From the NCBI RefSeq assembly GCF_028764065.1, contig NZ_JACOFN010000003.1, forward strand, positions 62,001-126,000: a DNA stretch of 64,000 nucleotides, read 5' to 3'. The stretch comes from Fructobacillus sp. CRL 2054. Lineage in GTDB: Bacteria; Bacillota; Bacilli; Lactobacillales; Lactobacillaceae. Positions 17,749 through 43,644 of the stretch are shown here, piece by piece (positions within the stretch are counted from its first letter, which is position 1; each line of letters opens with the position of its first letter). Made by a program: the position numbers and the translations under genes. The notes below the pieces were generated by a model, which made no database searches, was not told where the DNA came from, and saw only the letters and a program-made list of their open reading frames with translations.

Positions 17749-18666
17749 TCAGTTCAAACGGTCCAGTTTCCACTTAGCCGAATTCTTTTGATAAACCGGC
17801 CTTTTACCCTTAATAATCTGGTAAAAGAGTTCATAACTATTATAGCGCTCGGCACTAATGCTGCCAAGGTTGACCGCCTCTTTCACCGCACAACCGGGTT
17901 CATTTAAGTGGGAGCAGGTCCGGAAACGGCAGTTAACAGCAACTTCACGGATTTCAGGGAAGTAATTTCCCAGCTCTTCTGCTGGAAAGTCAAAGACTTC
18001 GTAAGATGAAAATCCCGGTGTATCAGCAATCAAGCTTTCATATTCCTTAACCGGAATTAAGGATACCTGACGGGTCGTGTGCTTTCCACGTGAAAGGGCC
18101 TGCGAAACCTCACCGACCTCTAACTTCAACTCTGGGGCTAACTGGTTCAACAAAGTTGATTTACCAGCCCCCGTCTGTCCCATGGCCACGACCACCTTGT
18201 CCTTAAGCAGCGGACCGAAGGTTTCCTTCAAATCATCCCCTGCAAAAATCACTGGATAACCGATTGATTGGTATAACGAGACTTTATTGCGAAAGGCTGC
18301 TTGTTCATCATCGGATAACAAATCAAGCTTTGAGAAGTACAGAACCGGTTTGACCTGTTCGGCCTCCAAGGCAACTAACTGCCGATCCAGTAAATTCTGA
18401 GAAAATGCCGGTTCCACAACGGAGGTCACCACAATCGCTAAATCAACATTAGCAACCGGTGGGCGCACCAAGCTATTCTCACGTGGATGGAGCGCCCAAA
18501 TCAATCCTTCACCATTTTCTGATTCAAAGTCAGCCCAATCGCCAACCAAGGGCTTTTGTCCTTTTTTTCTAAATTGTCCTCGAGCCCGGGTCCGTTCAAC
18601 CGTCCCATCTTCAAGCATTAAATCATAGTAACCGGCCAATGACCGAATAATTCGTCCTGTTTTCAT
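17749..18666 (-). CDS. rsgA: Small ribosomal subunit biogenesis GTPase RsgA
   Basis: 305 residues from the chosen start [16 protein letters not shown]; an in-frame ATG ten codons upstream lies inside the promoter and has no ribosome binding site. RsgA checks late maturation of the 30S subunit. It has an N-terminal OB fold, a circularly permuted GTPase domain (YFSKLDLL, then [18 protein letters not shown], then DTPGFSSYE) and a C-terminal zinc-binding region with cysteines in [16 protein letters not shown]. No ribosome binding site precedes the ATG; a -10 box ends 6 bases before it (see findings). Confidence 0.96.
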
Positions 18667-18681
18667 AGGAACATTATAACA
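18667..18681 (-). promoter_or_regulatory. rsgA promoter, predicted leaderless start
   Basis: TGTTATAAT on the minus strand (extended -10; hexamer 18673-18678) ends 6 bases before the rsgA ATG. Transcription would begin at or next to the A of ATG. The stkP terminator lies only some 30 bases upstream, so rsgA needs its own promoter. No good -35 hexamer is seen. Confidence 0.65.
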
Positions 18682-18706
18682 TGGCAATCCAAGCATTCAT
18701 TCTAAT

Positions 18707-18733
18707 AAAAAAAGGAATTCCAATTGGAATTCC
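18707..18733 (-). terminator. Intrinsic terminator of stkP
   Basis: A perfect 20-base palindrome (18714-18733, GGAATTCCAA with TTGGAATTCC) is followed on the minus strand by seven T. It lies between stkP and rsgA. Confidence 0.9.
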
Positions 18734-18747
18734 CTTTTAAAACTAGT

Positions 18748-20592
18748 TTAGTGGCTCGATGACGATGAAGAACTAGCACTTGAGCTAGAACTTGACGAGG
18801 AGCTATTGGATGACGAGCTAGCAGCACCCGAAGATACCGTTAGTGTCAACGTTTGGTCCAGACTAAACTTCGATCCAGCAGCAGGGTTTTGTGACAAAAC
18901 CGTACCGGCTTCTTTGTCAGAATCTTTAATCTGGAAGGACAAGGCTACTTGGTTCTGGTTAGCCCAAGACATGGCTGCCGACTGTGACCAGCCAGTCAAG
19001 TTTGGCAAGTTAATTGACTTTGCCCCCGATGAAACCGTCAAAGTGATGGTCGTATCCGATGGGTCAACGTGCGTTCCGGCAGCAATGGACTGTTCCATGA
19101 CCTGTCCGGAAGCAACAGAAGTGGAGTTTTCCGTCTTCTTTTTAACCGTGATTCCCTTATCCGTCAACTGGTTGGCTGCATCTGAATAGGAAAGCCCTGT
19201 GTAATCAGAAAGGGTGACAGAGTCACTTCCTGAAGAAATAATCAACTTTACCGATGAGCCCTTCTTAACCGAAGTACCCACACCCGGTTTCACCTTAATC
19301 ACGTTTCCCTTATCAACAGAACGTGAACTCGTCGTACTTGTTCCCGACACGGTCAGGCCGGCATCCTCAATCTTCGACTTTGCCGAAGATTCCGAGAGAT
19401 TGGCAACATCAGGCACAGACACAGTACTTGATTGAGTCTGAGCGGCAAAGTAGGAAATCCCCGCCACTGCGGCCAAGAAAATAACGAATAGGAAAATCCA
19501 CTTCCCCTTCTTAGAATATTTAATACCATTTTTCTTCAAAACATCACGAACAAACTTTGGCGTTCGATCAACTCGGTCAGAAATATCTTTTACAGAATAG
19601 CCTTTCTTACCCAAGTCGATGATTTGAGCCGTCACATCTTCTGGTTGCTCTTCGGCAGGTTCATCCTCAATCGGATCATCCTCAACGAATGGATGAGCAT
19701 TCCAGTCCGGTGTGACTAGCTTTGTTTCATCCGAAGCTTCAGGAACAAAACGGCCCTCACCAGAGCGACGCTTTGAAAGTGATGTCTTCAAATCATCCGC
19801 CATCGCTTCCGTTGAGAAATAACGGTCCTTGGCATCCTTAGCGGTAGCACGAAGAATCACGTTTTCCAATGGTTGTGGAATTTGTGGGTCAAAGTCGCGC
19901 ACGTAAGGCATTGGAACTTCCGCGTGCTGGTAAGCAATACGGTCAGCCGAATCCCCCTGGTATGGTACCTGGTTGGTCAACATCTCGTAAAGGATGACTC
20001 CCAATGCATAAATATCAGACTTTTCAGAGGCTGATTGTCCACGAGTCACTTCTGGCGCCAAGTAATGGATTGATCCAATGACCGGTTCCTGTGACGATGT
20101 CATCCCATACTTATTTTGAGCTAGCGCAATTCCAAAGTCAGTAATTTTTACCTGTCCTTGCTTGTTAATCAAAATATTCTGAGGCTTCAAATCACGGTGG
20201 ATAATCCCTGCTTTATGGGCAGCTGAAACAGCATCTAAAACCTGTTCCATGATATCCACGACTTCCTGATAAGGAATTGGGAAATGCTGCTTAATGAAGT
20301 CCTTCAAATCCGTGCCATCCACATACTCCATAATTAAGTATGGGCAGCCATCGGCTTCACCCATATCATAAAGTTGCACGATGTGGTCATTTACCAGCGT
20401 TGTCGCTGCCTTTGCTTCCTTTTGGAAACGAGACAAAGCTTCCGGCTGATTCTTAATATCCAATCGAATCATTTTTAGCGTTACATCACGCTTCAAATAG
20501 GTATCAAAGGCTTGGTAGACATTGGCCATACCGCCCTCACCTAAGGAGCGCACGATTTTATAACGATTATCGATTAACGTGCCTTGTTCCAT
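18748..20592 (-). CDS. stkP: PASTA-domain Ser/Thr protein kinase (PrkC/StkP family)
   Basis: 614 residues. The kinase domain (about 10-270) has the glycine loop LGEGGMANVYQA, K40, HRDLKPQN at 132-139 and D152-F-G. A linker holds an acidic stretch and, at about 318-357, a helix-turn-helix-like segment. One membrane span (about 365-384) precedes three PASTA repeats (about 390-455, 457-522, 524-588) and a serine-rich tail. The family senses muropeptides or lipid II and phosphorylates division and wall proteins. It overlaps the phosphatase gene by one base, so the pair is translationally coupled. Confidence 0.96.
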   Translation of the reverse strand: MEQGTLIDNRYKIVRSLGEGGMANVYQAFDTYLKRDVTLKMIRLDIKNQPEALSRFQKEAKAATTLVNDHIVQLYDMGEADGCPYLIMEYVDGTDLKDFIKQHFPIPYQEVVDIMEQVLDAVSAAHKAGIIHRDLKPQNILINKQGQVKITDFGIALAQNKYGMTSSQEPVIGSIHYLAPEVTRGQSASEKSDIYALGVILYEMLTNQVPYQGDSADRIAYQHAEVPMPYVRDFDPQIPQPLENVILRATAKDAKDRYFSTEAMADDLKTSLSKRRSGEGRFVPEASDETKLVTPDWNAHPFVEDDPIEDEPAEEQPEDVTAQIIDLGKKGYSVKDISDRVDRTPKFVRDVLKKNGIKYSKKGKWIFLFVIFLAAVAGISYFAAQTQSSTVSVPDVANLSESSAKSKIEDAGLTVSGTSTTSSRSVDKGNVIKVKPGVGTSVKKGSSVKLIISSGSDSVTLSDYTGLSYSDAANQLTDKGITVKKKTENSTSVASGQVMEQSIAAGTHVDPSDTTITLTVSSGAKSINLPNLTGWSQSAAMSWANQNQVALSFQIKDSDKEAGTVLSQNPAAGSKFSLDQTLTLTVSSGAASSSSNSSSSSSSSSASSSSSSSH

Positions 20593-38873: not shown

Positions 38874-39427
38874 GCTAAACTCAACTCCCTTCGCTCCAAT
38901 TCGGCAACTCGGCCGTTTGGTAACTTGACCTGCTGCTCACCGCCAGGTTGAATATCAAAACCTAAAACATCATAAAGATGACGAGCTGGCGCATTCGTTA
39001 CATCAACATCCAGCCATAAACGGTCGTAGCCAACTTGTTCGGCCCAGTCGATCATGGCTTCGATTGTCAGTCGGCCTAGTCCCTGATTCTGATAATCTTT
39101 TAAAACAGCAATCCCAACTTCACCAGCTGAAATGGATCCAATCCCAACTGGATAAGAAACAGCAGGATTATCGGCAGAATCATCTGCCGACTCAGCTTCC
39201 GCCCAAATCAACCAAGACTTCGCTGGTAAATCATCTTCAGGGTCCAAATCATCTTCATCAAAGGACCGGGACTGCTGGCGGGCGAGTTCATCGGCCAATA
39301 AAAAGGTATCGGACTCCTTCTTCAAAACGGCCAACAAATCTTGAGCGGCCTGAGCATTGGACAGGTCCATCCCCTTTAAACTATAGGTCAAAGTCACTTC
39401 GTCATCGCCCCGATTTTCGGCCATCAT
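38870..39427 (-). CDS. GNAT family N-acetyltransferase
   Basis: 185 residues. The acetyl-CoA-binding motif is AVLKDYQNQGLGRLTIEAM, and DVTNAPARHLYDVLGFDIQ is the usual C-terminal GNAT pattern. An acidic insert (FDEDDLDPEDDLPAK and EAESADDSADN) interrupts the N-terminal half. The location after tsaE could suggest RimI, but the sequence is not RimI-like and the substrate is unknown. It overlaps tsaE by 4 bases and the next gene by 4 bases, so the three are translationally linked. Confidence 0.85.
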   Translation of the reverse strand: MMAENRGDDEVTLTYSLKGMDLSNAQAAQDLLAVLKKESDTFLLADELARQQSRSFDEDDLDPEDDLPAKSWLIWAEAESADDSADNPAVSYPVGIGSISAGEVGIAVLKDYQNQGLGRLTIEAMIDWAEQVGYDRLWLDVDVTNAPARHLYDVLGFDIQPGGEQQVKLPNGRVAELERRELSLA

Positions 39428-39879
39428 GATAGCCCCTCTTCAATGCTTTCAGCATAACCAAGTCCCTTGATAGTAATCACACGGTCCGACTCTGACTCCC
39501 CCGTTCGCTCAAAGGTCATCACTAAGCGATCGTTTGGTAGTAAGTCCGCCATAAACTGTGGCCACTCAATCAAAGTGACTCCATCGGTTCCCAAGTAATC
39601 TTCAAATCCCTGATCCGCCGCACCAGACTCTTCCAAACGGTAAGCATCAAAGTGGTACAAAGGAATTCGCCCTGATTCGTAGGTATTCAAGATATTAAAG
39701 GTTGGACTCTTCACACGGTCTTCCACGCCTAAAGCTTGGGCAAAGCCTTTCGTAAAAGTCGTCTTACCAGCCCCAAGGTCACCGTTCAAAGTGATAACTA
39801 GACCAGGCTTAGCCAAGTTGGCAATCTGTTCTGCCAAAGCCTGGGTTTCTTTTGCATTTTTGCTTTCGTATTTTTTCAT
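39424..39879 (-). CDS. tsaE: tRNA threonylcarbamoyladenosine biosynthesis ATPase TsaE
   Basis: 151 residues from the chosen ATG (protein start MKKYESKNAKETQAL); starting earlier would read through the promoter and the queA terminator. The P-loop is VITLNGDLGAGKTTFTKGFA, followed by VKSPTFNILNTYESG and LYHFDAYRLEE. TsaE works with TsaB and TsaD in making the t6A37 base of tRNAs that read ANN codons. There is no ribosome binding site before the ATG; a -10 box ends 7 bases before it. Confidence 0.95.
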   Translation of the reverse strand: MKKYESKNAKETQALAEQIANLAKPGLVITLNGDLGAGKTTFTKGFAQALGVEDRVKSPTFNILNTYESGRIPLYHFDAYRLEESGAADQGFEDYLGTDGVTLIEWPQFMADLLPNDRLVMTFERTGESESDRVITIKGLGYAESIEEGLS

Positions 39880-39895
39880 AGAATCTATTATAACA
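39880..39895 (-). promoter_or_regulatory. tsaE promoter, predicted leaderless start
   Basis: TGTTATAAT on the minus strand (extended -10; hexamer 39887-39892) ends 7 bases before the tsaE ATG. The queA terminator lies about 35 bases further upstream. Confidence 0.65.
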
Positions 39896-41058: not shown

Positions 41059-42111
41059 TTACTTGTCAGGATATGGTCGTCCGAGATGTTCGTACGCCGC
41101 TTCGGTAACAACACGACCACGTGGTGTTCGCTTCAAGAAACCAATTTGTAGCAAGTAAGGTTCCACCATCGATTCAATGGTGTCCTGCTCTTCACCAATG
41201 TTGGCTGCAATCGTTGCCAGACCAACCGGTCCGCCATTGTACAAATCAATCATCAACAGCAACAATTTATGGTCGGTTTCATCCAAACCCTTTTGATCAA
41301 CACGCAGCTTATCCAAGGCCATGTCGACCAGTTCTGGTTCAATCGCTGTTTTACCAGCAACCTGGGCAAAGTCGCGCACCCGCTTTAACAAGCGGTTGGC
41401 AATTCGCGGTGTCCCACGGGAACGCAGGGCAACGGCCAAAGCACCTTCTTTAGTAATCGGTGCTTCAAAAATCGCCGCCGTACGTTTCACAATCTCCGCC
41501 AAATCTTCAGGCTCGTAGTAGGCCAAAGAGTTAATGATTCCAAAACGATCACGTAAAGGCTTTGACAGCATCCCGGGACGAGTTGTCGCCCCCACCAAAG
41601 TAAAGGGTGGTAATGGGAAATGGACGGCCCGGGCCGTTGGCCCCTGCCCGACCATGATGTCGATGTAGTAATCTTCCATGGCCGAGTAGAGCATTTCTTC
41701 CACGTTCATTGGTAAACGATGAATTTCATCGATGAAGAGAACGTCTCCTGGTTCCAGTCCGTTCAAAAGGGCAACCAAGTCGCCACCCTTTTCAATGGCC
41801 GGACCCGAAGCCGTCTTCAAGTGGACGCCCAACTCGTTGGCAATAATCATCGCCAAGGTGGTTTTACCTAAACCTGGAGGGCCAAAGAGTAGAACGTGGT
41901 CCAGTGCTTCTTCACGCATCTTAGCCGCCTGCAAGTAAACAGACAGTTCCTCTTTCAAAGCCCGTTGGCCAATGTATTCCGACAGCTTCTTTGGACGCAG
42001 TGAAAGTTCGCTCTCCTGCTCCTCCTGATTAGCCGAAGCGTTCTTCAAGAGTTCATCCGTCTCGTTTTGCCCCTCGTACCAGGCGTTAAATTGTGGGTTT
42101 TCGTCAGTCAT
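41059..42111 (-). CDS. ruvB: Holliday junction branch migration helicase RuvB
   Basis: 350 residues, AAA+ motor. Walker A is [18 protein letters not shown], Walker B is [10 protein letters not shown], sensor 1 is [11 protein letters not shown], and the C-terminal winged helix includes [21 protein letters not shown]. RuvB drives branch migration with RuvA; ruvA is not in the window. It follows the rdgB terminator and has its own promoter with the -10 box 7 bases before the ATG, so its mRNA is probably leaderless or nearly so. Confidence 0.98.
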
Positions 42112-42124
42112 TAGTCCTATTATA
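42112..42124 (-). promoter_or_regulatory. ruvB promoter, predicted leaderless or near-leaderless start
   Basis: TATAAT on the minus strand (42119-42124) ends 7 bases before the ruvB ATG. A weak AGGA overlaps the interval. No clear -35 is visible. The rdgB terminator lies about 55 bases upstream. Confidence 0.6.
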
Positions 42125-42816: not shown

Positions 42817-43644
42817 TCATTTTTGTTCTAATTCTTCAACTGGCAAGTGAGCGAAATGCCAATCACCTTGACCAAGCCAGTCGGTAGCAATGACTTCAAA
42901 AGCATCAACTGGACCAGTCGTATAGAGTTCATAACTTGCAGCAGCTGCTGACTCTGTGTCCAACAAGTCCATACTCTTTAAACTTTTTGCTAAATCAACC
43001 GCCGTTGCCGCACCGGCATCAACCAGTTTTACGCCGGAACCGACCGCCTTTTGAATGGACTTAGTCAGCAATGGAAAGTGGGTACAGCCCAAAATCAAGG
43101 TATCAATCTTATCAGCTCCAAAGTCCTGCAAGTGTTCAGCCACTTCTTCTTCAGCCGCAGTCGTCTGATAGGTATTCTTTTCAACCAATTGAACAAAGTC
43201 GGGCTCGGCCTGAGCGAAGACCTTAGCCCCAGGTTTTAGAGAATGAATCTCATCCTGATACTTAGCAGACTTCACAGTTCCTTCCGTCGCAATCAGACCA
43301 ATTCGACCCGTTTGACTGGTCTTAACGGCCGCTTTAGCCCCCGAATCAATGACCCCAATAACTGGAATATTGAGTTCCTTTTGCAAAACGGGTAAAGCAC
43401 AGGCCGTGGCTGTGTTACAGGCAATGACAAAGACTTTGATATCGTATTTTTCAATCAAAAAATGCGCAATTTGTCTTGCAAATTGCACCACTTCTTCGGG
43501 CCGACGTGGCCCATATGGGTTTCTCGCATTGTCTCCAACAAAGACAATTGATTCCTTTGATAAAAGGGCCTTAACCGCCTTCAAAACAGTCAAACCACCA
43601 ATACCGGAATCCATCATTCCAATTGCATTCATCGATTTCTTCAT
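42817..43644 (-). CDS. murI: Glutamate racemase MurI
   Basis: 275 residues. It makes D-glutamate for MurD. The two catalytic cysteines lie in FVIACNTATACALPVL and LILGCTHFPLL; GMMDSGIGGLTVLKA and VGDNARNPYGPR are family signatures. The first ATG has AGGAG only two bases upstream, which is too close for usual pairing; a second in-frame ATG four codons later (MNAIGMMDSG) has none. A CATAAT box ends 7 bases before the first ATG. Divergent from the YslB-like gene. Confidence 0.96.
   Translation of the reverse strand: MKKSMNAIGMMDSGIGGLTVLKAVKALLSKESIVFVGDNARNPYGPRRPEEVVQFARQIAHFLIEKYDIKVFVIACNTATACALPVLQKELNIPVIGVIDSGAKAAVKTSQTGRIGLIATEGTVKSAKYQDEIHSLKPGAKVFAQAEPDFVQLVEKNTYQTTAAEEEVAEHLQDFGADKIDTLILGCTHFPLLTKSIQKAVGSGVKLVDAGAATAVDLAKSLKSMDLLDTESAAAASYELYTTGPVDAFEVIATDWLGQGDWHFAHLPVEELEQK

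Follow-up and report, generated by a model that had tools for sequence, protein, structure and literature searches.

Probable leaderless expression of rsgA in the Fructobacillus–Leuconostoc clade

The rsgA locus and its conservation in the clade

How is rsgA of Fructobacillus sp. CRL 2054 expressed, when the gene lies immediately downstream of a transcription terminator and its start codon is not preceded by a Shine–Dalgarno (SD) sequence? The window analyzed here is a stretch of 64,000 nucleotides of this genome. The rsgA coding sequence (17749..18666, minus strand) encodes the ribosome small subunit-dependent GTPase A (305 aa; TIGR00157, 215.7 bits versus a cut-off of 100), whose nearest named match was from F. 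durionis (97% identity). The upstream gene stkP (18748..20592, minus strand) encodes a PASTA-domain Ser/Thr kinase (NF033483, 583.7 bits versus a cut-off of 450) and is followed by an intrinsic terminator (18707..18736, minus strand) composed of the stem-loop AAGGGAATTCC-AATT-GGAATTCCTTT and a T-run reaching 18707. Downstream of this terminator, the minus strand presents, in order, the extended -10 element TGTTATAAT (18681–18673), the six-base discriminator GTTCCT (18672–18667), and the ATG of rsgA (18666–18664). No SD-like motif was found before this ATG using strict or loose motifs. The sequence thus confirmed every element that the earlier note had described, namely the stkP terminator ending at 18707, the extended -10 element ending six bases before the ATG, and the missing SD. 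Given a six-base discriminator, the transcription start would fall on the A of the ATG (A = +1). A generic promoter scan did not return this site because the scan demands a -35 element, and no good -35 is present there.

To evaluate the earlier suggestion that a conserved distance between the -10 element and the ATG in relatives would favor a leaderless mRNA, we compared the region upstream of rsgA in all clade genomes drawn (n = 31; 13 Fructobacillus, 14 Leuconostoc, and two each of the sister genera g6 and g39). These bacteria are harmless species of foods and plants. The motif TGnTAnnnT preceded the rsgA ATG in all 31 genomes, with a spacing of six bases in 28 and seven in three, a conserved distance of the kind that the earlier note had named as support. 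The start codon was ATG and the base at -1 was a pyrimidine (C or T) in 31/31 genomes. An SD at the orthologous position of close relatives, which the earlier note had named as evidence against its reading, was found in none of the 31 genomes with either strict or loose motifs. Among the 28 rows with a spacing of six, T-15, G-14, T-12, A-11, and T-7 were each invariant (28/28), and the mean information per column was 1.59 bits from -15 to -7, 0.30 bits from -6 to -2, and 0.23 bits from -60 to -23, with just 0.01 to 0.04 bit in columns -4 to -2. The discriminator itself occurred in 25 variants among the 31 genomes. The putative -10 element and its distance to the ATG are kept and the letters of the spacer are not, as expected if the promoter-to-ATG distance is under selection.

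These data, which are confined to sequence, support well the leaderless reading of rsgA proposed in the earlier note, the same arrangement being present in 31/31 genomes of four genera. We consider it probable (roughly 0.86) that rsgA in this clade is an independently transcribed leaderless gene. According to this reading, transcription of stkP would end at the intrinsic terminator, and RNA polymerase would restart at the extended -10 element, which has no recognizable -35 partner, with the A of the rsgA ATG as the first base transcribed. The resulting mRNA would start with 5'-AUGAAAACAGG and would be translated as a leaderless mRNA. In 13 of the 14 Leuconostoc genomes, the hairpin ended just 17 to 20 bases before the rsgA ATG, and in loci L042–L051, L053, L073, and L074 of this genus the T-run of the terminator led straight into the TGTTAnnnT of rsgA, forming a terminator–promoter fusion.

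RNA reading through from stkP would carry no SD before rsgA and would be poorly translated, so that RsgA would be left under its own promoter. Insulation, with most RsgA coming from its own small promoter, may be the most likely consequence of the arrangement, a view that we hold tentatively and at slightly less than even odds. An advantage of this kind for leaderless genes was mentioned in a genome-wide survey of 2011, as far as its consulted parts go (PMC3160421). Terminator-like hairpins within 130 bases upstream of rsgA were found in 30/31 clade genomes versus 14/58 other genomes; their presence in the latter counts against insulation, as does the distribution of stkP, which was upstream of rsgA in 27 of the 29 clade loci tested and was not found upstream in the other two.

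rsgA in other Lactobacillales and known leaderless genes

We next compared rsgA in other genera of Lactobacillaceae. The first set comprised 59 regions from 16 genera including g7, or 58 without g7, these 58 loci being taken from the matches listed for a pool of 269 genomes that belong neither to the clade nor to g7. A -10 element at 5 to 7 bases before the rsgA start was found in 0/59 regions, and an SD-like motif preceded rsgA in 58/58 loci with the loose motif and in 50/58 with the strict motif. The second set comprised 25 further loci from 19 genera, excluding L140 (a fragment) and L141–L144 (below the cut-off or second copies). None of these 25 had a -10 element directly before rsgA; an SD-like motif was present in 21 (loose) or 13 (strict) and absent from 4 (loose) or 12 (strict). 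A weak or missing SD is therefore not peculiar to the clade, whereas the promoter is. When both sets without g7 were pooled, 0/83 loci had the -10 element and 79/83 (loose) or 63/83 (strict) had an SD-like motif. The start codons outside the clade, for which we chose in each locus the candidate preceded by the best SD, were ATG in 29, TTG in 22, and GTG in eight (n = 59 with g7), and stkP was located upstream in 26 of the 30 loci tested. In contrast to the clade, where rsgA lacks an SD, most related genera have an orthologous, SD-led rsgA after stkP, often with TTG or GTG as the start codon. As a test for convergence outside Lactobacillaceae, 24 loci were read from 77 genomes of other Lactobacillales families; these loci, including g43 (taken as Streptococcus), had no -10 element at 5 to 8 bases before rsgA (0/24), and 23/24 had an SD.

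Some features of these relatives lie apart from this comparison. In the SD-led loci L066–L070, L072, L085, and L086 (genera g13, g15, and g20), a hairpin was followed by T's with a TATAAT-like stretch at the loop, upstream of the SD. All four g9 genomes lacked a match to this RsgA, and a search of one of them with TIGR00157 gave only hits below the cut-off. In g29 genomes, RsgA was divergent or none was above the TIGR00157 cut-off.

In a phylogenetic tree of 59 RsgA proteins, 29 of them labeled leaderless, a single label change sufficed. The leaderless rows occupied one side of a branch with support of 86/95 (not starred) that was recovered in 83% of bootstrap trees, and the tree fits a single origin of the putative leaderless arrangement. 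The g7 genome was sister to the leaderless group with support of 100/100, and its rsgA had no -10 element directly before it. This sister genome and the absence of an SD from some loci outside the clade both weigh against the leaderless reading. In the g7 locus (L052), TGATAAAAT was located 7 bases ahead of a ten-codon ORF (MTWKDKMSLI), the stop codon TGA of which overlapped the rsgA ATG; this ORF, observed in this one genome, may represent a leaderless mini-cistron to which rsgA is coupled.

Leaderless genes were already predicted for the Oenococcus–Leuconostoc clade by the 2011 survey (PMC3160421). In the parts of it consulted, the predicted genes resemble rsgA in having TAtAAT approximately 12 bases (counted from the first T) before the start, in a peak of TG found for several low-GC genomes, and in belonging to the same clade. 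The survey differs in being genome-wide and statistical, and rsgA, rimM, or a per-gene switch from the SD are not named in those parts. Further cases have been mapped in Streptococcus and Lactococcus, as described in the portions available to us of three papers (PMC6212727, PMC4448216, PMC10986495). In pneumococcus, 70 of 768 operons begin exactly on the coding sequence (PMC6212727), and S. agalactiae has 78 leaderless mRNAs, all starting with AUG (PMC4448216). Across the three papers, AUG-initial mRNAs account for 8–9% of units in two Streptococcus species and for about 13% of mRNAs in L. cremoris, and pneumococcus proved able to translate a leaderless reporter. Those mRNAs share with our case the order Lactobacillales and the initial AUG, although their 5' ends were mapped, whereas that of rsgA is predicted, and the 24 loci from other families, g43 among them, differ in having no -10 element directly before rsgA. 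A literature search for leaderless rsgA, rimM, or Leuconostoc genes retrieved no paper on the rsgA arrangement by title, with subscription papers mostly outside its coverage, and, judged by titles, no mapped 5' ends for the clade. Leaderless genes are thus predicted for the clade and documented in Streptococcus and Lactococcus, and the predicted leaderless rsgA is a new and well-conserved case. It offers a clean evolutionary switch within one family, from the mostly SD-led rsgA of relatives to a presumably leaderless one.

Other genes with the architecture and its possible purpose

The earlier note reported the same architecture at tsaE and ruvB in the window. Both genes indeed have a -10 element near the ATG, but the spacing is seven rather than six bases, and ruvB departs further. 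The tsaE gene (39424..39879, minus strand; TIGR00150) has TGTTATAAT as an extended -10 element (39887..39895, minus strand) before the putative leaderless start at 39879, the open frame extending further upstream. The -10 element of ruvB (41059..42111, minus strand; NF000868) is a TATAAT (42119..42124, minus strand) without the TG extension, and AGGA lies between it and the ATG. Among the 17 clade genomes tested, tsaE had the -10 element at six or seven bases in all 17; ruvB had it in 12, with a spacing of seven in all 12 and a pyrimidine at -1 in just five of them. The architecture was also found at uvrC (16/17), xerC (17/17), and rnhC (14/17), where the 17 include the row of our own genome that had been chosen by the motif. 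Several outgroup rows of uvrC, xerC, ruvB, and tsaE stood at extrapolated positions and were left out of all conclusions. Genes for an ArsR-type regulator and an ABC-type ATPase had the architecture in this genome and in Leuconostoc.

Additionally, rimM (TIGR02273), which functions in 30S maturation, had the architecture in 20/20 clade genomes that yielded the gene, 17 of these rows having been found by homology and three (our own genome and two Leuconostoc) via the motif itself; three of the 20 stretches fetched, all from Leuconostoc, did not yield rimM and are excluded from this count. The spacing was seven in 15 of the 20 rows. In our own genome, rimM lies outside the window (L346:17595, minus strand; contig C21:57595), and TGCTATAAT stands seven bases before its ATG. 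Together, rsgA, rimM, tsaE, uvrC, xerC, rnhC, and, in part, ruvB constitute a small conserved set for probing what leaderless initiation is good for.

Two other starts showed related but weaker features. The recX gene of this genome (NF010733; L358:12095, plus strand) had TAAAAT six bases before the ATG, but it lacks the TG extension and has AAGGA interposed, and is a weak further candidate. In the window at 42817-43644 (minus strand), CATAAT lay directly before AGGAG and the ATG, such that a -10-like and an SD-like motif crowd one start.

A leaderless start might allow 70S ribosomes to make RsgA when mature 30S subunits are scarce, as the earlier note had proposed, and thereby provide feedback on 30S assembly. 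Leaderless mRNAs start mostly via direct 70S binding, as stated in the part of the source consulted (PMC9031893), and two 30S maturation factors, RsgA and RimM, have the architecture clade-wide. The sharing by rimM keeps this idea alive: a 30S shortage would lead to more 70S-initiated translation and to a rise of both RsgA and RimM, forming a built-in homeostatic loop; a set of DNA-repair and recombination genes would share it, whether by chance or by design. However, once rsgA is given, a further 30S gene would turn up among the nine others with a probability of about 0.07, under the assumption, rather than a count, of 11 further such genes in 1299. The architecture is not confined to 30S maturation genes, being carried by uvrC, xerC, tsaE, rnhC, and partly ruvB as well as by the ArsR-type regulator and ABC-type ATPase genes. 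The 30S gene ksgA (TIGR00755) is led by the SD AAGGAGG, no such -10 element preceded rsgA in the Lactobacillales loci read elsewhere, and translation genes were less often leaderless in the 2011 survey, so far as its consulted parts report (PMC3160421). Searching 454 kb of this genome by motif identified no 30S maturation genes other than rsgA, rimM, and ksgA, and the comparison within this class covers these three. The start of YsxC, a ribosome assembly GTPase encoded in the window, likewise had no -10 element directly before it. Production of RsgA under 30S scarcity is accordingly unsupported as the specific purpose of the arrangement, and we regard the feedback as unlikely. The rsgA arrangement is real, and because several other housekeeping genes have the same arrangement, it is more likely a group habit than a special device for ribosome feedback.

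The spacing of seven bases in some of these genes bears on a variant of the leaderless reading, in which the first transcribed base would lie 1 to 5 bases ahead of the rsgA ATG, leaving a very short leader. Such a spacing, which would place +1 one base before the ATG, was present in 3/31 rsgA rows, 15/20 rimM rows, and 12/12 ruvB rows with the -10 element. On the other hand, the pyrimidine at -1 in 31/31 rsgA rows favors a start on the A of the ATG, and a leader this short would hardly differ functionally from none. We therefore consider a short leader at rsgA rather improbable and retain the start on the A of the ATG.

Upstream start codon and chance occurrence

The rsgA start at 18666 was selected by homology and the geometry of the -10 element, and agrees with the N-terminus of RsgA in relatives. 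Mechanical ORF calling begins the gene at the in-frame ATG 18696, up to which the reading frame is open, but a longer N-terminus is very improbable and the start at 18696 was rejected. This ATG has no SD, and with it the -10 element would fall within the coding sequence. In 17/31 clade genomes, the stretch read contains no upstream start in frame, and in the remaining 14 every such start lacks an SD.

A chance match can be dismissed for rsgA as having next to no probability: the counts within the window did not exceed expectation, but the architecture is kept over four genera despite diverged surroundings, which makes chance untenable as an origin of this putative promoter arrangement. In the window, TATAAT-N6-ATG with at most one mismatch had 11 matches versus 13.2 expected. 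The earlier note had appealed to the recurrence in the window against chance; it is the conservation across genomes that speaks against it. In the whole genome, the exact TATAAT-N6-ATG had 14 matches versus five for the reversed-pattern control, and 10 of these 14 sites start ORFs of at least 71 aa: rsgA, uvrC, rnhC, xerC, an ABC-type ATPase, an ArsR-type regulator, a cold-shock-like protein, a small unnamed protein, and two near-identical ORFs. The last two encode 87 aa each on different contigs (L001 and L004) and are perhaps genes of a mobile element. Of the 407 ORFs in 454 kb of this genome, 10 had a -10 element at a spacing of six or seven, versus approximately six expected from the mean of 14 other spacings. 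With the TG extension, four ORFs (rsgA, tsaE, rimM, and arsR) had these two spacings, versus one over all 14 others. The excess at the gene level in the 454 kb is modest, which also weighs against the leaderless reading, and becomes clear only with the TG extension. Counts from the window and from a single genome are too weak to decide alone, and since the window counts do not exceed chance, the case for rsgA rests on the comparison across genomes.

We also counted TGNTATAATN6ATG against the control in other genomes. The 13 Fructobacillus genomes had 75 matches versus 0, and the 14 Leuconostoc genomes had 144 versus 36. The corresponding numbers were 9 versus 3 in g6, 7 versus 2 in g39, 3 versus 2 in g7, 45 versus 14 in g18 (inferred to be Weissella), 27 versus 6 in g26, 9 versus 7 in g2, 13 versus 18 in g4, 1 versus 7 in g24, and 26 versus 33 in g38. 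Among the genera tabulated, the habit is therefore strongest in the Fructobacillus–Leuconostoc clade, yet not confined to it. Of 25 such sites in two Leuconostoc genomes, 18 start ORFs of at least 85 aa, which include rimM, xseA, uvrC, and tsaE in both genomes, and dinB.
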